DNA of 48,244 nt. Source: Actinomycetota bacterium. GTDB taxonomy: Bacteria > Actinomycetota > Acidimicrobiia > IMCC26256 > VFJJ01. Below are positions 16,157-44,607 of this stretch, in pieces. A program made the position numbers and the translations under genes. The notes below the pieces were generated by a model. That model searched no databases, was not told the DNA's origin, and saw only the letters and a program-made list of their open reading frames with translations. Where the stretch lies: contig VFJJ01000123.1 in NCBI GenBank assembly GCA_009886115.1, positions 1 through 48,244 of the forward strand, in the 5' to 3' direction. Every line of letters starts with the position of its first letter. The stretch's first letter is position 1.

Positions 16157-17485
16157 ATGCCCGAATCGAGCCCGCTGGAGTCTTCGGAGCACGGGGCCGG
16201 CTCGCCCCGCGCCACCGACCGGCCCGGCGAGGCCACGTGCAACTTCTGCCGCGCTCCGCTGCAGCAGGTGTTCACCGATCTGGGGATGCATCCGCTGTGC
16301 GAGCGGATCATCCCGCCCCAACGGGCCCTGGAGATGGAGCCCTTCTACCCCTTGCGGGTGCTGGTGTGCGAGCACTGCCTGCTCGTCCAGGTGCCCGAGT
16401 GCGCCAGCGCAGCCGAGATCTTCGATGACGAATACCCGTACTTCTCGTCGTTCTCCGACTCGTGGGTCGAGCACGCCCGGCGTTTCGTCGAGTCGTCGAT
16501 CGACCGGTTGGGCTTGGGGGAGCACAGCCTGGCTGTCGAGATCGCCAGCAACGACGGCTATCTCCTGCAGTGGTTCGTCAAGGCCGGCGTGCCCTGCTTC
16601 GGGGTCGAACCGGCGGGCAACGTGGCTCGGGCGGCCGAGGAGCGCGGCGTCACGTCGATCGTCCGGTTCTTCGGACAGCAGACGGCCCGCGACCTCGTCG
16701 CCGACGGCCACCGCGCCGATCTGCTCATCGGGAACAACGTGCTGGCCCACGTACCCGACATCAACGACTTCGTCGCCGGGCTGGCGATCCTCCTCGCCCC
16801 CCGGGGTGCGATCAGCATGGAGTTCCCCCACCTGCTCCGGCTGATCGAGGGCACCCAGTTCGACACCATCTACCACGAGCACTTCTCGTACCTGAGCTTG
16901 GGTGTCGTCGAGCGCATCTTCGCCCGGCATGGTCTGGCGGTCTACGACGTCGAGGAGCTTCCGACGCACGGCGGATCGTTGCGGGTGCATGCCCAGCATG
17001 CCGACTCCGGCCCCCACCCGTCGACAGCACGGCTCGCGGCGCTCCGGATCTCGGAAGACGATTTCGGATTGTCGCGGCTCGAGACCTACACCCGCTTCGA
17101 CGAGCGTGTGCAGGCCGTGAAGCACGGGCTGTTGGAGTTCCTGCTCGCGGCGCGGCGCGAGGGCAAGACGGTCGTCGGCTACGGCGCTCCGGGCAAGGGC
17201 AACACCCTCTTGAACTACTGCGGTATCAAGCCCGACCTGCTCGAGTACACCGTCGATCGCAACCCGTACAAGCACGGGAAGCTCTGCCCGGGAAGTCGTA
17301 TCCCGATCCTGCCGGTGGAGGCCATCGGCGAGACCCGTCCCGACTACGTCCTGATCCTGCCCTGGAACCTCACGACCGAGATCACCCGTCAGATGGCATT
17401 CATCGCCACCTGGGGCGGGCGTTTCGTGGTGCCGATCCCCGAGGTGACGATCGTCCCCGTGGCCGAGACCGGGGAGGGGCCGTGA
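16157..17485 (+). CDS. NDP-hexose C-methyltransferase family protein
   Basis: The 442-residue protein has the three-part layout of sugar C-methyltransferases of the TylCIII/NovU type. An N-terminal zinc-binding domain has two CxxC pairs (CNFC at 28-31 and CEHC). A SAM domain carries VEIASNDGYLLQWF and the IYHEHFSYLSL block with the catalytic His region, and a C-terminal domain carries GYGAPGKGNTLLNY and DRNPYKHGK. Such enzymes add a methyl group to a 4-keto sugar bound to a nucleotide. It is the first gene of an operon in which the next start (GTG 17482) overlaps its stop by 4 bp. About 240 bp upstream are gene-free and could hold the operon promoter. Confidence 0.9.
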   Translation: MPESSPLESSEHGAGSPRATDRPGEATCNFCRAPLQQVFTDLGMHPLCERIIPPQRALEMEPFYPLRVLVCEHCLLVQVPECASAAEIFDDEYPYFSSFSDSWVEHARRFVESSIDRLGLGEHSLAVEIASNDGYLLQWFVKAGVPCFGVEPAGNVARAAEERGVTSIVRFFGQQTARDLVADGHRADLLIGNNVLAHVPDINDFVAGLAILLAPRGAISMEFPHLLRLIEGTQFDTIYHEHFSYLSLGVVERIFARHGLAVYDVEELPTHGGSLRVHAQHADSGPHPSTARLAALRISEDDFGLSRLETYTRFDERVQAVKHGLLEFLLAARREGKTVVGYGAPGKGNTLLNYCGIKPDLLEYTVDRNPYKHGKLCPGSRIPILPVEAIGETRPDYVLILPWNLTTEITRQMAFIATWGGRFVVPIPEVTIVPVAETGEGP

Positions 17486-18291
17486 AGGTCGTGCTGTTCT
17501 GCGGCGGCCTCGGGATGCGCATTCGCGACTACAGCGACAACATCCCGAAGCCCATGGTGCCCATCGGTTATCGACCAATCATGTGGCACGTGATGAAGTA
17601 CTACGCACATTTCGGCCACAATGATTTCGTCCTATGTCTCGGATATCGGGCGGACGTCATCAAGCGGTATTTCCTCGATTATGAGGAGTGCCTATCGAAT
17701 GACTTCGTGCTGAGCGGTGACGGTCGTGCGGCCGAGCCGCTCAAGACCGACATCACCGATTGGCGGATCACCTTCTGCGACACCGGGATCAACGCCAGCA
17801 TCGGCGAACGGCTCCGTGCCGTGAGACGCCATCTCGATGGGGAGGCGGAGTTCCTCGCCAACTACAGCGACGGGCTCACCGACTGCCCCCTCGACGATGT
17901 CGTCGAGTACCACCGGCGGATGGACGTCACCGCCACGTTCATGGCGGTGACCCCGAACGTGTCGTACCACTTCGTGCAGTCCGACGCCGACGGATACGTG
18001 CACAACATCGAAGCGGCGTCGAACATGGGGCTGCGCATCAACGGCGGCGGGTTCGTGCTCCGCAACGAGATCTTCGACGAGCTCCATCCCAAGGAGGACC
18101 TCGTCACCGACGCGCTCCCACGTCTCATGGCGCAGCATCGCGTGGCGGCGTTCCGATACGACGGCTTCTGGGCCAGCATGGACACCTTCAAGGACAAGCA
18201 GTCGCTCGACGAGATGCACTCGGCAGGGAACGCGCCTTGGGAGGTCTGGGAACGCGACGGCGATCCCCGCCCGGAGGCGGTCGGGGCGTGA
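17482..18291 (+). CDS. RfbF-like sugar-1-phosphate nucleotidyltransferase
   Basis: A 269-residue protein of the glucose-1-phosphate cytidylyltransferase type: the activation loop LFCGGLGMRIRDYSD (usual GTR replaced by GMR), IPKPMVPIG, HVMKYYAHFGHNDFVLCLGY and RYFLDYEE. The product would be a CDP- or similar NDP-sugar for later modification. The GTG start overlaps the previous TGA, and the end overlaps the next start (GTGA at both junctions), showing tight coupling with the C-methyltransferase and the deacetylase. The usual partner, a CDP-glucose 4,6-dehydratase, is not found in the window. Substrate and nucleotide are inferred from family resemblance only. Confidence 0.87.
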   Translation: MKVVLFCGGLGMRIRDYSDNIPKPMVPIGYRPIMWHVMKYYAHFGHNDFVLCLGYRADVIKRYFLDYEECLSNDFVLSGDGRAAEPLKTDITDWRITFCDTGINASIGERLRAVRRHLDGEAEFLANYSDGLTDCPLDDVVEYHRRMDVTATFMAVTPNVSYHFVQSDADGYVHNIEAASNMGLRINGGGFVLRNEIFDELHPKEDLVTDALPRLMAQHRVAAFRYDGFWASMDTFKDKQSLDEMHSAGNAPWEVWERDGDPRPEAVGA

Positions 18292-18938
18292 GCGCGCTCC
18301 GGCTGCCGGTCGAGATCCCCGAAGGACGCCCGCTGCGGGTCTTGGCGCTCGGGGCTCATGCCGACGACATCGAGATCGGCTGCGGCGGTACCCTCTTGCG
18401 CCTCGTCGAGGAGGTGCCCGGCCTCGAGATCGGCTGGGCCGTCTTCTCAGCACGGGGAGAGCGTCGATTCGAGGCCGAGCGGGCCGTCGAGCTCTTCGCC
18501 GGTGCGGCGGCCACGCACGTGGAGTTCCACGACTTCGACGACTCGTACTTCCCGGCCGCCTTCGCCGAGCTCAAGGACGCGCTCTTCGCATTGCGGGCCC
18601 GGTTCGTGCCCGACGTCGTGCTCACCCACGCTCGCGACGACGCCCACCAGGATCATCGGACGATCGCCGAGCTCACCTGGAACACCTGGCGTGACCACCT
18701 GGTCATGGAGTACGAGATCCCCAAATGGGATGGTGACCTGGGTCGCCCCAATTGCTATGTTCCGCTCAGCGAGACCCTGCTCGATCGCAAGATCGAACTC
18801 CTCCACAAGGCCTTCGTGTCCCAGGCATCGAAGCGGTGGTTTGCCCCATCGACGTTCAGAGGGCTGGCCCATCTCCGCGGGGTCGAGTGCAACGAGGTTG
18901 CAGCCGAGGCGTTCACGTTCCGCAAGCTCGTGCTCTGA
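18288..18938 (+). CDS. PIG-L family (LmbE-like) deacetylase
   Basis: A 216-residue zinc-dependent N-acetyl-sugar deacetylase. The metal site motif is AHADDIE (H24, D26, D27), and the second metal/active-site block is THARDDAHQDHR, both typical of PIG-L enzymes. In this operon it probably removes an acetyl group from an N-acetylated NDP-sugar or glycoside. The GTG start at 18288 overlaps the preceding stop by four bases. It is distinct from the MshB/Mca-like protein at 43732, which has the mycothiol-type GGYGHPDH motif instead. Confidence 0.88.
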   Translation: MSALRLPVEIPEGRPLRVLALGAHADDIEIGCGGTLLRLVEEVPGLEIGWAVFSARGERRFEAERAVELFAGAAATHVEFHDFDDSYFPAAFAELKDALFALRARFVPDVVLTHARDDAHQDHRTIAELTWNTWRDHLVMEYEIPKWDGDLGRPNCYVPLSETLLDRKIELLHKAFVSQASKRWFAPSTFRGLAHLRGVECNEVAAEAFTFRKLVL

Positions 18939-18939
18939 C

Positions 18940-19899
18940 ATGGATCCCGAGCTCGCCCCTTCCGCCGCTTCGCTCGCAGCTGGTGGCTCGCCGCTGCCGT
19001 CCGACCACGTGAGCATTGGGCTGCCCGTCTACAACGGTGCTCGCTACCTGGCCGAGACGCTCGACGGTGCGCTGGCACAGACGCATCGGAACTTCTCGAT
19101 CATCGTGTCCGACAACGGCTCGACCGACGACACGTTGGCGATCCTCGATCGCTACGTTCGCCTCGACCCGCGCATCAGGGTGATCGCGCACGAGCGCAAC
19201 CGGGGCCCGGCGTGGAACTTCGAGTTCGTGCGCACACAGGCCGAGGGTTCCTACTTCAAGTGGATGGCCCACGACGATCTCCACGCCAGCACGTATCTCG
19301 AGCGGTGCGTGGCCGCCCTCGAAGCCGATCCCGAGGCCGTGATCGCCCAGCCCCGGGCGATCTACATCGACAGTGACGGAGCCGAGCTGCTGCGATCGTT
19401 CCGCAACGCTCCCGGACCCGCCGCCGGCCCCGCGGCCCGCTTGCGCTACGTGCTGGAGCGGGCCCACGACTTCACCTTCGGCTTCGGTGTGATCCGCATG
19501 CCCGCGCTACGCCAGCTCTCGCCGTGGCGATCACGGTACGGGGCCGACGAGCTGCTGCTGGCCGAGCTGGCGTTGCTGGGCCGGTTCGTCGAGCCGCACG
19601 CCCACCTCTTCATGAATCGCCTGCACCCCGGGCGATCGATGGTTGCCAACAGCGGCATCCGCCAACGCCTGTACTGGAACTCGTGGTGGGCGGCGACGCC
19701 AGCCCGGGGCGCCGAGTACCCGTCATGGCGCTTCCTCGCCGACCTCCTGGCCATCGTGCGCCGCAGTCCCATCTCGGTGGCTGAACGCCGCGAGTGCCTG
19801 TCGTCGATCGCACTGTGGATCAGGTGGTACTGGCCGCACTTGGCCATCGACGTTCCCCTCGGAATCGAGCAGTGGTGGCGAGTTCGATCCGCGTCGTAA
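18940..19899 (+). CDS. Family 2 glycosyltransferase
   Basis: A 319-residue GT-A fold glycosyltransferase. It opens with VSIGLPVYNGARYLAETL, has the nucleotide-binding SDNGSTDDT, and carries the DxD-like MAHDDLH. The C-terminal half contains a basic, tryptophan-rich end (WIRWYWPH) that may touch the membrane. It would transfer one of the sugars made by the neighbouring genes. The ATG at 18940 sits 1 bp after the preceding stop. Acceptor unknown; surface polysaccharide or glycolipid is likely from context. Confidence 0.88.
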   Translation: MDPELAPSAASLAAGGSPLPSDHVSIGLPVYNGARYLAETLDGALAQTHRNFSIIVSDNGSTDDTLAILDRYVRLDPRIRVIAHERNRGPAWNFEFVRTQAEGSYFKWMAHDDLHASTYLERCVAALEADPEAVIAQPRAIYIDSDGAELLRSFRNAPGPAAGPAARLRYVLERAHDFTFGFGVIRMPALRQLSPWRSRYGADELLLAELALLGRFVEPHAHLFMNRLHPGRSMVANSGIRQRLYWNSWWAATPARGAEYPSWRFLADLLAIVRRSPISVAERRECLSSIALWIRWYWPHLAIDVPLGIEQWWRVRSAS

Positions 19900-20894
19900 A
19901 GACCTGGGAGGAGCTGGCCGCTGCCCGGGCGGCCTGGGTCGACCTCGTCGAACGCTCCGGCGCGCTCCCGACCGCGTCGCCCGAATGGGTGCTCCCCGGT
20001 TGGCGAGCGTTCGGGTCGGGGCGCCTCTGCAGCGTCATGGTCGACGATCCCGTCGACACGGGACGGCTGCTCGGTCTGGGTCTGTTCATCGAGAGTCGGG
20101 CTCCGGGGCCGCGCCTGGTGCGCTCGGTCGTGGCTTCGACCGGAGCCGTCGCCGAGATCCTGGTCGATCCCGACCATCCCGATCTGGCCCGCGAGATCGT
20201 GGTCGCGGCGTTGGGCTCGTCGCCGGCGCTGTTTCGCTGCTCGGCGTTCCTCGGTGGCGAGGGCCTGCGGGGAGCGACACTCGACGATGTCGCCGGTGCT
20301 GGTGGCGCCGGGCGGGCAACGGTGGTGCTCCGACCGAACGACGCGGGCACGACCCTGTGGGAACTGACGGTCGACGCGCTCGAGAGCGGGCTCTCGGGTG
20401 TGGCCGAGGCCGCCCGGGACGCCGGTCTCGAGGTCCGCCTCGGCCGTGACGTCGATGTCGACGAGAAGGCGTTCCGCCATCTCGACCACGTGTTCCACGG
20501 GCCCGAACCGGTGGACGGCGCCGATCGGCGGGCGGCGTTCGTCCCCGAGGTGCTCGACGGCTTCGCCCGTCACGGGCGCCTGGTGTGGCCCATCGTCACC
20601 CGGGGCGAGGAGATCGTGGCCACCAGCGCCTGGCTGGTCTCGGGTCACCGGGCGATGCTCTGGCTCCGGTGGGAACTCGATCCGGTCGACGGTCCGGGCG
20701 TCGACGTCGTCGCGGCGATCGAGCCGTTGCGCCGTGCGGGCGTCACGTCGATGGCCGTCTCCGACCGACTGGTGCTCCCGGCGTTCGCCGCGGTCACTCG
20801 ACGGGTGCCCGACCTCGTGGAGGTCACGAACCGTTCCTGGCTCGGGGCGGCCGGGCGCCTGTGCTCGCGAAGCGCAGCCCGGCGCCGGCGATGA
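19875..20894 (+). CDS. BioF2-like/GNAT-fold acyltransferase candidate
   Basis: The 339-residue protein has the layout of the GNAT-fold 'BioF2-like' (CelD-type) family found in polysaccharide clusters: an N-terminal WEELAAARAAWVDLVERSG helix, a central TGAVAEILVDPDH region, then the C-terminal fold core with WPIVTRGEEIVATSAWLVSGH. These proteins may acylate sugars or peptides in surface polymers. GTG 19875 was chosen for position inside the end of the GT gene (25-bp overlap); GTG 19872 is equally possible. The end overlaps the next ATG by 4 bp. Family call is moderate. Confidence 0.65.
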   Translation: MASSIRVVKTWEELAAARAAWVDLVERSGALPTASPEWVLPGWRAFGSGRLCSVMVDDPVDTGRLLGLGLFIESRAPGPRLVRSVVASTGAVAEILVDPDHPDLAREIVVAALGSSPALFRCSAFLGGEGLRGATLDDVAGAGGAGRATVVLRPNDAGTTLWELTVDALESGLSGVAEAARDAGLEVRLGRDVDVDEKAFRHLDHVFHGPEPVDGADRRAAFVPEVLDGFARHGRLVWPIVTRGEEIVATSAWLVSGHRAMLWLRWELDPVDGPGVDVVAAIEPLRRAGVTSMAVSDRLVLPAFAAVTRRVPDLVEVTNRSWLGAAGRLCSRSAARRRR

Positions 20895-22327
20895 CGTCGG
20901 GCCATCGGGAAGCCGCTGCGGCACAGATCGAACCGCAGGCGTCAGTGCCCTTCCGCGACCTCGAGGCCGACATCGTCGAACGTCTGCTCGTCGATCTCTA
21001 CCCGATCGGGCGATCGATCACCGGTGACGGCGTGCGGGCGACCCTGCACCGCATCGCGAACGAGATCCCCGACCTGGTCGTCCACGAGGTGCCGTCGGGC
21101 ACGGCCGTGCTCGACTGGGTGGTGCCCGACGAATGGAACCTGCGCCAGGCCTGGATCGCCGGGCCCGACGGCCGACGCCTGATCGACGTGGCCGACTCCT
21201 CGCTGCACGTCATGGGCTACTCGGAGCCGGTCCGAGCCACGATGACGCGCGACGAGTTGCTGGCCCATGTGCACACGCTCCCGACCCAGCCGACGCTCGT
21301 CCCGTACCGGACCTCGTATTACAAACGGGCCTGGGCGTTCTGCCTGAGCCACGACCAGCTCGACGCGCTCGGCGATGGTCCGTTCGACGTGTGCATCGAC
21401 GCGACCCTGGCCCCCGGCTCGTTGACCTACGGGGAGTTGACGATCCCGGTCAGCACCGGAGTGGTCGACGAGGGCGAGGTGCTCCTGAGCACCCACGTGT
21501 GCCATCCGGGCCTGGCCAACGACAACCTCACGGGCATTGCCGCGCTCGTCGCGATGGCCCGGCGCCTGGCGGCTGCTCCGCTGCGACGACACACCGTGAG
21601 GATGCTCTTCATTCCCGGGACCATCGGCGCGATCGCCTGGCTGGCGACGCATCGGGCCGAGGTCGAGCACATCCGGGCCGGCCTGGTGGTGACCGGCCTG
21701 GGCGACGCTGGGGGGCTGGTGTACAAGCGCAGCCGGAGGGGAACGACGCTCGTCGACCGGGCCGCGCATCACGTGCTCGGACGGGCCTCGACGCAGGGCG
21801 TGGCTCCGCGGATCGTCGACTTCTCGCCCTACGGCTACGACGAGCGGCAATTCTGCTCCCCGGGCTTCGATCTCCCGGTCGGACGGCTCACGCGCACTCC
21901 GCACGGCGAGTACCCCGAGTACCACACCTCGGGCGACGACCTGTCGTTCGTTTCGGCGAGCCAGGTGCTGTCCGCGGTCGACGACATCGAGGCCATCGTG
22001 GCCGTGGTCGACCGGAACGCCACCTACGTGAACCTGGCTCCGTTCGGTGAGCCGCAGTTGGGTCGCCGCGGTCTCTACGGCGACACCGGCGGCACCCGTC
22101 CCGGCGTCGAGATGGGCTATCTCTGGCTGCTGTCGTGCTCGGACGGCTCGAGCGACCTGCTGGCCGTCGCCGAGCGATCGGGGCTGCCGGTCGACGACCT
22201 GGCCGACGCCGCCGACCGTCTGGTGGCCGCGGGCCTGCTGCAGCGGATCGCCTCGGACCCGAGCGGCCCCGAAGCGGGTGCAGGGCTCGAAGCCGTTGCC
22301 GACACTCAGGTCCCGGCGACCTCGTAG
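20891..22327 (+). CDS. DUF4910 aminopeptidase-like protein
   Basis: A 478-residue protein matching the DUF4910/DUF2172 pattern, common in sugar-modification clusters: YPIGRSITGDGVRATL near the start, LSTHVCHPGLANDNLTG with candidate zinc ligands (His and Asp), and a C-terminal EYHTSGDDLSFVS block. The fold is aminopeptidase-like, but the family's real substrate is not firmly known; it may cleave an amide in a sugar-linked intermediate. The ATG overlaps the previous stop by four bases. Its 3' end overlaps the convergent epimerase gene by 22 bp on the opposite strand. Confidence 0.82.
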   Translation: MTSGHREAAAAQIEPQASVPFRDLEADIVERLLVDLYPIGRSITGDGVRATLHRIANEIPDLVVHEVPSGTAVLDWVVPDEWNLRQAWIAGPDGRRLIDVADSSLHVMGYSEPVRATMTRDELLAHVHTLPTQPTLVPYRTSYYKRAWAFCLSHDQLDALGDGPFDVCIDATLAPGSLTYGELTIPVSTGVVDEGEVLLSTHVCHPGLANDNLTGIAALVAMARRLAAAPLRRHTVRMLFIPGTIGAIAWLATHRAEVEHIRAGLVVTGLGDAGGLVYKRSRRGTTLVDRAAHHVLGRASTQGVAPRIVDFSPYGYDERQFCSPGFDLPVGRLTRTPHGEYPEYHTSGDDLSFVSASQVLSAVDDIEAIVAVVDRNATYVNLAPFGEPQLGRRGLYGDTGGTRPGVEMGYLWLLSCSDGSSDLLAVAERSGLPVDDLADAADRLVAAGLLQRIASDPSGPEAGAGLEAVADTQVPATS

Positions 22328-22845
22328 GGCGCAGCGGCATCGTCCTTCGTGGAGATCCGGGCGATGGGCACGGGCCAGGTGATCGCGAACGCCGGCGAGA
22401 GGTGGTGGGCCCCTCGCTCGTGCTCGGGGCTGTAACGCTCGCTCATCTGGTACGTGATCTCGGTGTCGTCGGTGAGGGTGACGTAGCCGTGGGCGAACAG
22501 CGGCGGCACGTACAGGGCCCGACGGTTGTCGGCACTCAGCTCCACGGCGATGTTTCGGAGGTGGGTGGGGGAGTCGGGGCGCAGGTCGACGATCACGTCC
22601 CAGATGGCGCCCCTCGTGCACCGGACGAGCTTGGCCTCGGCGGCCGGGGGCACCTGGTGGTGCATGCCCCGCAAGGTCCCTGCGACGTGGTTGTACGCGA
22701 TGGAGCACTGGGCCACGACCGGGCTGAGCCCGTGCGCCTCGAACTCGTCCCGGCAGAACGTCCGGGCGAAGAAACCGCGATCGTCGCCGCGGCGATCGAC
22801 GTCGACGAAGAACGCGCCGGGGAGCTCGGTCTCGGTGAAGATCAC
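22306..22845 (-). CDS. RmlC-like dTDP-4-keto-6-deoxyhexose 3,5-epimerase family protein
   Basis: A 179-residue cupin epimerase. It shows RGFFARTFCRDEF, the core GTLRGMHHQ containing the catalytic His, KLVRCTRGAIWDVIVDLRPDSP, and LFAHGYVTLTDDTEITY. It would epimerise a 4-keto sugar, consistent with the sugar operon that converges on it from the other strand. GTG 22845 was chosen as it lies nine bases after a GGAG in the antisense orientation. The gene is divergent from the aldo/keto reductase at 22906 with only 60 bp between starts. Confidence 0.88.
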   Translation of the reverse strand: MIFTETELPGAFFVDVDRRGDDRGFFARTFCRDEFEAHGLSPVVAQCSIAYNHVAGTLRGMHHQVPPAAEAKLVRCTRGAIWDVIVDLRPDSPTHLRNIAVELSADNRRALYVPPLFAHGYVTLTDDTEITYQMSERYSPEHERGAHHLSPAFAITWPVPIARISTKDDAAAPYEVAGT

Positions 22846-43731: not shown

Positions 43732-44571
43732 CTACGCCTTCGGGGAGTCTCCGGTGAACAGATCGTGCACGACGGCGATCGGCTCCCCGAGCGGGCGGGG
43801 ATACCCGTAGCGGATGTAGAACTCCCAGCCGAACGACTCGGCGAACACCTCGACCGGCATCTGCATGAAGAACGAGGTCTCGTCGATCTGGCTGGCATGC
43901 GCCGCCATGGCCTGGCGCTTGCGCGGCGCATGCTCGCGGACGTCGACCGCGTGGGTGATGCGCTCCTCGGGCACGCCGAAGTCGTCGTCGAACTCATCGA
44001 TCTCCAGCATGCCCTCGGGCATCTGGCCACCGTTGCTCTCGGCGGCTGCGCGCATGAGTCGCTCGAAATGGGCCCGGTTGATGGTGGCCTCGTACACCTC
44101 GGTGACGCCGGCGATGGCTGCGGCCCGGAGTCCGACGCGGTGCACCTGGATGTGGTCGGGATGGCCGTAGCCGCCGTTGTCGTCGTAGATCGTGAGCACG
44201 TCGGCGTCGACCTCGGTGAGGATGGCGGCCAGTCGCTGCGCTGCCTCCTCGACGTCGGCCTGCCAGAAGCAGTCGGGGCGCTCGGTCGTGGGCGTCGCCT
44301 TCATCCCCGAGTCGTGGTAGCCCAGGAACTCGACCCGCTCGGCCCCGAGCACCGCCGCCGCGTCCGCGGACTCCGTGCTGCGCCGGTCGCCCAGGGTCTC
44401 GCCGGGTTCGAGGAACCCGTCGGCCACCTCGCCGACCTCGCCCCTGGTCGCCAGCACCAGCACGACCCGGTGCCCGTCGGCCGCGGCTCGCGCCATCAAC
44501 CCGCCCGTGGCGATCGACTCGTCATCGGGATGGGCATGGAAACAGACCAAGGTGGGCATCCCGGAAATCAT
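43732..44571 (-). CDS. PIG-L deacetylase, MshB/Mca-like (mycothiol type)
   Basis: A 279-residue zinc deacetylase. The metal motif AHPDDES lies close to the N-terminus and GGYGHPDHIQVH follows near residue 150. This is the pattern of MshB (mycothiol biosynthesis) and Mca (mycothiol conjugate cleavage). I cannot separate the two; MshB-like motif details look slightly better. ATG 44571 or 44559 could start it, neither with a clear ribosome site. It is divergent from the GNAT gene starting at 44608 by only 36 bp. Confidence 0.82.
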   Translation of the reverse strand: MISGMPTLVCFHAHPDDESIATGGLMARAAADGHRVVLVLATRGEVGEVADGFLEPGETLGDRRSTESADAAAVLGAERVEFLGYHDSGMKATPTTERPDCFWQADVEEAAQRLAAILTEVDADVLTIYDDNGGYGHPDHIQVHRVGLRAAAIAGVTEVYEATINRAHFERLMRAAAESNGGQMPEGMLEIDEFDDDFGVPEERITHAVDVREHAPRKRQAMAAHASQIDETSFFMQMPVEVFAESFGWEFYIRYGYPRPLGEPIAVVHDLFTGDSPKA

Positions 44572-44607
44572 GACGCGCCATCGGTGGCCATCCGGCACCA
44601 TGGCCCG

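Follow-up and report, generated by a model that had tools for sequence, protein, structure and literature searches.

A putative dehydratase-free branched-sugar module around a divergent RfbF-like clade in an Acidimicrobiia contig and in other bacteria

Background

The sugar C-methyltransferases TylC3 and TcaB9 belong to antibiotic pathways with dTDP-6-deoxy sugars. Here we describe an operon coding for a methyltransferase of their type (CMT) in a 48,244-nucleotide stretch of DNA (the window) from an Actinomycetota bacterium of the class Acidimicrobiia. The window is an entire contig (VFJJ01000123.1, here C28) of a 5.4 Mb assembly with 224 contigs and 95.6% completeness. The operon also encodes a nucleotidyltransferase of a divergent RfbF-like clade (RfbF'), a PIG-L deacetylase and a DUF4910 protein. 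We read it as a dehydratase-free branched-sugar module of a CMT/DUF4910 type, in which C4 oxidation without 6-deoxygenation would feed CMT; judged from sequence, this reading has about an even chance of being right.

In the available parts of the structural report on CA_C2195 (3k9t; Das et al. 2014, PMC4000134), the DUF4910 family is represented by a protein of the same three-domain build with a one-zinc site, in which the M28 catalytic residues are replaced; its suggested activity is the transacylation of sugars, with hydrolysis of amides considered less likely. Neighbourhoods of that type likewise contain nucleotidyltransferase, glycosyltransferase, sugar methylase, acetyltransferase and epimerase/dehydratase genes, whereas the RfbF' clade, the PIG-L core, the link with C-methyltransferases and not with DRL proteins (see below), and the missing dehydratase are not named in those parts. 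The initial annotation of the window regarded the role of DUF4910 as an open question; in the same parts its function is indeed left open, but its link to surface-sugar operons was already published.

A 4-keto sugar obtained through oxidation and followed by a C3/C5 epimerase is found in the heptose route of Campylobacter jejuni, where Cj1427 oxidises C4 with no dehydration (PMC10680097, available part). Unlike the module of the window, this route uses GDP-heptose, and C-methyltransferase, PIG-L and DUF4910 are not mentioned in that part. No description of the broad RfbF' module as such was found in the literature searched.

Results and discussion

Operon layout and key proteins

The operon consists of six genes on the + strand (16157-22327) with a convergent RmlC-like gene (22306-22845) that shares 22 bases with the end of the DUF4910 gene. 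Its junctions are three 4-base overlaps, one 1-base gap and one 28-base overlap (start 19872 assumed). Lengths below are in amino acids (aa).

16157..17485, + strand: CMT, TylC3/TcaB9-type sugar C-methyltransferase, 442 aa (Pfam Methyltransf_13/_23/_14; 4rv9)
17482..18291, + strand: RfbF', nucleotidyltransferase of the divergent RfbF-like clade, 269 aa, GTG start (NTP_transferase; 1tzf; clade signature)
18288..18938, + strand: PIG-L/LmbE deacetylase, 216 aa, GTG start (PF02585, 2.1e-16)
18940..19899, + strand: family 2 glycosyltransferase (GT2), 319 aa (PF00535 Glycos_transf_2, 1.1e-29)
19872..20894, + strand: GNAT/Acetyltransf_6-like protein, 340 aa, alternative start 19794; accessory and rare (PF13480, 22.7 bits)
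20891..22327, + strand: DUF4910-DUF2172-HTH_47 protein, M28-peptidase-like, 478 aa (PF16254, 3.3e-92)
22306..22845, - strand: RmlC-like 3,5-epimerase, convergent (PF00908 dTDP_sugar_isom, 4.6e-57)

Open reading frame calls and Pfam thus bear out the arrangement first proposed, six touching or overlapping genes of these families with an RmlC-like gene converging. The idea of an NDP-sugar (nucleoside diphosphate sugar) operon with a C-methyltransferase and without a local dehydratase is likewise supported, as none of the seven proteins matches dehydratase or aminotransferase families in Pfam and TIGR model scans. Among the called frames flanking the operon, inspected by eye without a library scan, no further sugar-operon genes were seen. 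A second PIG-L-like protein is encoded at 43732-44601 (- strand); its FHAHPDDE motif was spotted by eye, and it seems to resemble mycothiol-type deacetylase.

CMT has the Methyltransf_13-SAM domain-Methyltransf_14 architecture of sugar C-methyltransferases (Methyltransf_14 at 1.6e-64), matches TylC3/TcaB9 near full length, and its closest solved relative is D-mycarose 3-C-methyltransferase (4rv9, 5.9e-85). Y239, E241 and H242 of its YHEHF motif, which we take to be active-site residues, are unchanged in all 58 aligned CMTs. CMT is predicted to methylate a 4-keto NDP-sugar.

Metal motifs of the PIG-L/LmbE family are conserved in aligned PIG-L relatives (HxDD in 85 of 86, with one gap, and HQDH, of the form HxxH, in 86 of 86). 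The DUF4910 protein belongs to its family (PF16254 with DUF2172 insert and HTH_47), and its closest structure is 3k9t (5e-104). Zinc ligands H, D and H are unchanged in 41/41 sequences, the window copy included; this copy alone of the 41 has Gly at a position where 38 have Ser.

RfbF' represents a distinct clade

RfbF' matches NTP_transferase (2.1e-7) and the solved relative 1tzf (3e-45). R13, K23, D130 and D234, presumably the catalytic Arg/Lys and Mg-binding Asp residues, are unchanged in all 91 aligned RfbF' sequences. On the RfbF model TIGR02623, however, the protein scores 212.8 bits, under the cut-off of 300.25. The first G of the GDG motif is S, A or T in 90/91 sequences and C in the remaining one; in the RFG motif, R is replaced by S or T and G by H in 91/91; and none has a lysine in the EKP column, a motif we take to be the sugar-phosphate site. 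Eight true RfbF proteins retain GDG (8/8), the R of RFG (7/8) and the EKP-column lysine (7/8, one column off in the eighth), and are separated from RfbF' on a branch with support 100. By these signatures RfbF' is a distinct clade with a predicted altered sugar site. The label "RfbF-like" conceals this distinction. Apart from RfbF', no true RfbF was seen in this genome, where the sole other match to the RfbF' protein is partial (E 1.9e-6, contig C48).

The module shares with the CDP-sugar route (RfbF-RfbG) this resemblance of RfbF' to RfbF, and CMT and RmlC of the class relative G030 are 52% and 45% identical to those of the window. It differs from that route in lacking the EKP lysine and GDG/RFG and in the missed TIGR02623 cut-off, and the genome has no RfbG over cut-off. 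G030 carries RfbF-RfbG-CMT-RmlC followed by a CmcI/rhamnosyl O-methyltransferase (L058:9074-13529). Such a set would suit a 6-deoxy-3-C-methyl-2-O-methyl sugar, for example the CDP-vinelose known from Azotobacter; a literature search for vinelose returned no paper.

Loci with RfbF' in other bacteria

One genome per species was scanned with the RfbF' alignment as query. At least 572 confirmed relatives were found and the best 80 analysed. Presence counts in these 80 loci are lower bounds, since 36 of them are shorter than 16.6 kb and they are the best 80 of at least 572, chosen by likeness to RfbF'. RfbF' loci come from records titled Cyanobacteria, Nitrospira, Acidobacteria, Planctomycetes, Gemmatimonadetes, Bacteroidales, Proteobacteria and others. 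PIG-L is present in 76 loci (in 63 on the same strand within 700 bases downstream), CMT in 47, RmlC in 42, DUF4910 in 37 and GT2 in 19. Two types of short-chain dehydrogenase/reductase (SDR) recur: GYIG-SDR, an extended SDR with motif SSCSxYG (41 loci), and a UXS-like SDR (13). Finally, 18 loci contain DRL, a protein that we take to be DXR-like.

In the same loci, dehydratases were sought with RfbG, RmlB and GMD models of one sequence each and a 250-bit threshold. RfbG-type (CDP-glucose-type) 4,6-dehydratase exceeds it in four loci and RmlB- or GMD-type in none (RmlA not looked for); weaker best matches of 57-91 bits in seven loci were left out of the counts. No match of any of the three types over threshold occurs in the 47 CMT loci. 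The initial annotation held that the dehydratase is absent and must be encoded elsewhere, unless the pathway is new. None is indeed present at the locus, but local absence is usual in CMT loci, and what the window lacks in comparison with many relatives is a different SDR.

DUF4910 accompanies CMT in 33 of its 37 loci and is found in none of the 18 DRL loci. CMT and DRL occur together in a single locus, L145 (Fisher 1.6e-7; kinship ignored). CMT and DRL have replaced each other several times along the RfbF' tree: the best tree implies eight changes, and starred branches force no fewer than five for either label. RmlC is present in 17 of the 18 DRL loci, and the DRL copy of L083 matches PF21135. 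In 17 of the 80 loci, L083, L090, L123, L143 and L153 among them, DRL adjoins RfbF' and PIG-L while CMT is missing; it may offer an alternative path to a branched sugar. The Anabaena HEP island (alr2825 cytidylyltransferase, alr2827 epimerase/dehydratase, alr2830 rfbC; available part of PMC4390870), similar by gene labels alone, is possibly a DRL-type relative.

Candidate partner SDR on another contig

GYIG-SDR, present in many relatives, is not encoded in the window. A copy located at C39 83072-84088 rules out its absence from the genome. It adjoins a GT2 gene, whose product has no BLAST match to GT2 of locus L114 at E 1e-4; other module genes are not found within the 39 kb read. The top match of this SDR (66.5%) is the SDR of L114 (Hydrococcus), and the next six reach 57-64%. 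L114 has the order SDR-GT2-CMT-RmlC-DUF4910-RfbF'-PIG-L, with two extra genes between DUF4910 and RfbF'; another bearer of the full set is Caenimonas soli S4 (L137). Because all seven best matches lie in DUF4910 loci, this genome appears to hold an L114-type set divided between two places.

Such a division also invites the view that the operon is a remnant whose partner was lost or moved and whose product is no longer made, to which the GNAT-like gene, nearly unique to this genome, would add. We consider this highly improbable: all frames are open, the checked active-site residues are kept and the junctions are tight, the genome's SDR is 66% identical to its linked relative, and the class relatives G126 and G046 have split sets too, in their case combined with true RfbF.

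SSCSxYG and YxxxK are present in all 47 aligned GYIG-SDRs. The T/S-D-E or T/S-D-K motif, which is the rule for NDP-sugar 4,6-dehydratases, is present in none, so that GYIG-SDR is not predicted to be such a dehydratase. Its closest solved structure, 6vo6, is distant (E 4.9e-22 and 8.5e-29); taken as the C4-dehydrogenase Cj1427, it counts in favour of C4 oxidation.

The SDR might instead be a finishing C4-epimerase or 4-ketoreductase, acting on a keto sugar from another dehydratase such as the GDP-mannose 4,6-dehydratase (GMD) on C86. GalE-type profiles are its top NCBIfam matches, the SSC motif is reminiscent of GDP-fucose synthase, and GMD is over its cut-off (448 vs 415). However, no GMD-type match exceeds the threshold in the 80 loci, and in four of 12 true-RfbF loci of the class GYIG-SDR (one partial) follows RfbF, the place of RfbG in G030, with no TIGR02622 match at E 1e-70 in those four genomes. 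Since it follows RfbF where G030 has RfbG and TIGR02622 is unmatched there, GYIG-SDR seems to take the place of the keto-forming enzyme, and we regard a finishing role as unlikely.

Distribution in the class

The class set comprises 325 genomes, this one (G000) included. Genes in their loci were named by likeness to proteins of the window and a small number of others instead of by a library scan; for L070 and L086, gene prediction relied on a model that had this genome as its training set. DUF4910 occurs in six genomes and the PIG-L subfamily of the module in 13. GYIG-SDR is found in 11 of the 13 PIG-L genomes vs 18 of the 312 others (Fisher 2.7e-11; kinship ignored), whereas CDP-glucose 4,6-dehydratase is unlinked to PIG-L (1/13 vs 15/312, p 0.49). 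G193 and G258 are the PIG-L genomes without GYIG-SDR; CMT was not seen there in the stretches read. All six DUF4910 genomes have GYIG-SDR.

The order SDR-CMT-RfbF'-PIG-L is found in G087, G195, G277, G178 and G213, with DUF4910 next in the last two; G259 has CMT-RfbF'-PIG-L without SDR at the locus. CMT adjoins RfbF' in nine genomes (these six, G000, G001 and G201), and GYIG-SDR is present somewhere in all nine, in G000 on a contig other than the CMT-RfbF' locus. As a control, none of 12 true-RfbF loci, from one class, contains this PIG-L.

GYIG-SDR follows true RfbF in L053, L057, L059 (partial frame) and L060, and also in L186, L188 and L190; in genomes with this arrangement CDP-glucose 4,6-dehydratase is unmatched at E 1e-70. 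In L093 (5548-6675) and L092 (740-1831) PIG-L/DUF4910 is followed by a gene for a protein of 363-375 aa, which in the case of L093 matches nothing in Pfam or NCBIfam. Split sets were observed in G046 (L187, L054), where DUF4910 stands with true RfbF, and in G126 (L188, L094), where it stands with RmlC; in both, CMT and GYIG-SDR share one contig and DUF4910 lies on another.

Dehydratases of the host genome

The genome was scanned with NCBIfam models at their curated cut-offs. RmlB (dTDP-glucose 4,6-dehydratase, TIGR01181) and RmlD on C48, RmlA on C190 and GMD on C86 all exceed them. No CDP-glucose 4,6-dehydratase (RfbG, TIGR02622) does, the top score being 77.2 vs 278.45 bits. A genome wholly without dehydratase is thereby ruled out. 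Aminotransferases are encoded elsewhere in the genome, as indicated by 14 DegT-family matches, six with E < 1e-80. The genome's RmlB (L063:12218-13249, on C48) reads STCEVYG, yet is over the TIGR01181 cut-off.

These genes could supply a classical route, in which RmlA and RmlB make dTDP-4-keto-6-deoxyglucose, CMT methylates it in the manner of TylC3 and TcaB9, RmlC epimerises, GYIG-SDR or RmlD reduces C4, and RfbF' has a side role. RmlA, RmlB and RmlD are all over their cut-offs, TIGR01181 is matched in 10 of 16 searched genomes bearing the module or parts of it, and the nearest solved relatives of CMT, by name as returned by the search, work in pathways whose substrates we take to be dTDP-sugars. 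On the other side, TIGR01181 is unmatched at E 1e-60 in six of the 13 PIG-L genomes (G087, 100% complete; G108, 98%; G233, 90%; G277, 83%; G193 and G258), and G087 and G277 have CMT beside RfbF'. The census gave no RmlB-type match over threshold, and RmlB of this genome has STCE in place of what we take to be the usual STDE (STDEVYG). We consider the classical route rather unlikely.

TIGR02622 is matched at E 1e-70 in G193 alone among the 13 PIG-L genomes. G087, with SDR-CMT-RfbF'-PIG-L, matches neither TIGR01181 nor TIGR02622 at these limits (other dehydratases not searched). Since the module is present and both models are unmatched, the two usual dehydratases seem not to be needed in at least the G087 lineage.

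Evidence weighing against oxidation without dehydration

Several observations count against the proposed dehydratase-free module. G087 is a draft of about 100 contigs in which only TIGR01181 and TIGR02622 were searched, and the host genome, with RmlB and GMD, has a 6-deoxy 4-keto sugar available. GYIG-SDR is found in only 26 of the 47 CMT loci; eight others have the UXS-like SDR (motif SSE) and 13 neither within the flanks. GYIG-SDR might just as well act as epimerase or 4-ketoreductase, since GalE-type models, its best NCBIfam matches, and MoeE5 also match it. A literature search did not confirm the assumed identity of 6vo6 with Cj1427. The GYIG-SDR of G259 lies apart from the module, in a sugar locus that also encodes true RfbF, RmlC and DRL, so that its co-occurrence with the module there is ambiguous.

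Four of the 37 DUF4910 loci have no visible CMT. In G126 and G046, DUF4910, CMT and GYIG-SDR coexist with true RfbF, and this PIG-L is lacking; DUF4910 is therefore not tied to RfbF' and tracks CMT and SDR instead. Tests on phylogenetically independent pairs give no significance, in mean counts, to the association of CMT with DUF4910 (4.1 same vs 1.1 opposite, median p 0.375) or to the avoidance of DRL by CMT (0 same vs 3.2 opposite, median p 0.25) or by DUF4910 (0 vs 4.0, median p 0.125), because such kinship-aware pairs are too few.

Remaining proteins

The RmlC-like protein scores 139.9 bits on TIGR01221, under the equivalog cut-off of 155.75. H62, K72 and D168, presumably the catalytic His/Lys/Asp, are unchanged in 50/50 aligned sequences. 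Its identity to RmlC of other loci is 59% (L090), 51% (L083), 46% (L089), 45% (L058), 44% (L084), 42% (L094) and 37% (L049). We rejected, though not decisively, a role as housekeeping rhamnose epimerase: C57 carries another PF00908 gene, and the window copy, only 34% identical to this other RmlC, is nearer to RmlC of several module loci. GT2 has 12 relatives listed from the 80 loci (identity 32-39%). The acyltransferase-like gene named in the initial annotation does match Acetyltransf_6, but weakly (22.7 bits, cut-off 22). A single-sequence AlphaFold model of the protein has pLDDT 35.7, too low for use, and it is matched in two of the 325 class genomes at E 1e-8, this one included.

Proposed route

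The analysis establishes the gene identities, the conserved residues, the composition of the module and the presence of a matching SDR in the genome; from these we infer reactions, their order, their substrates and the glycan as follows. RfbF' and PIG-L would form the module core, and the window operon would be its CMT/DUF4910 type. RfbF' would build a nucleotide sugar, probably from a sugar-1-phosphate other than plain glucose-1-phosphate. GYIG-SDR from C39 would oxidise C4 with the 6-hydroxyl retained, the RmlC-like enzyme would epimerise adjacent to the keto group, and CMT would methylate the keto sugar at C3 (or C5). PIG-L would strip an N-acyl group; the route perhaps begins with an N-acetylamino sugar, which would account for the absent local aminotransferase. 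DUF4910 would act in the C-methylated version, probably by amide or acyl chemistry on the sugar. The GNAT-like protein may re-acylate the sugar, and GT2 would move it onto a surface glycan, its presumed destination.

Conclusions

More broadly, and more tentatively than for the window itself, the module may represent a multi-phylum pathway class that makes C-branched NDP-sugars without a 4,6-dehydratase. Its parts would be RfbF' as a nucleotidyltransferase clade with a novel sugar specificity, an SDR acting by oxidation, a deacetylase at the core, and as branch-related enzyme either CMT (often with DUF4910) or the DXR-like oxidoreductase DRL. Family models would label parts of the RfbF' module "cytidylyltransferase" and "epimerase". 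If the proposal is true, a common surface sugar has so far escaped notice and a large RfbF-like clade is misnamed, and DUF4910 would gain a testable pathway, that of C-methylated sugars.

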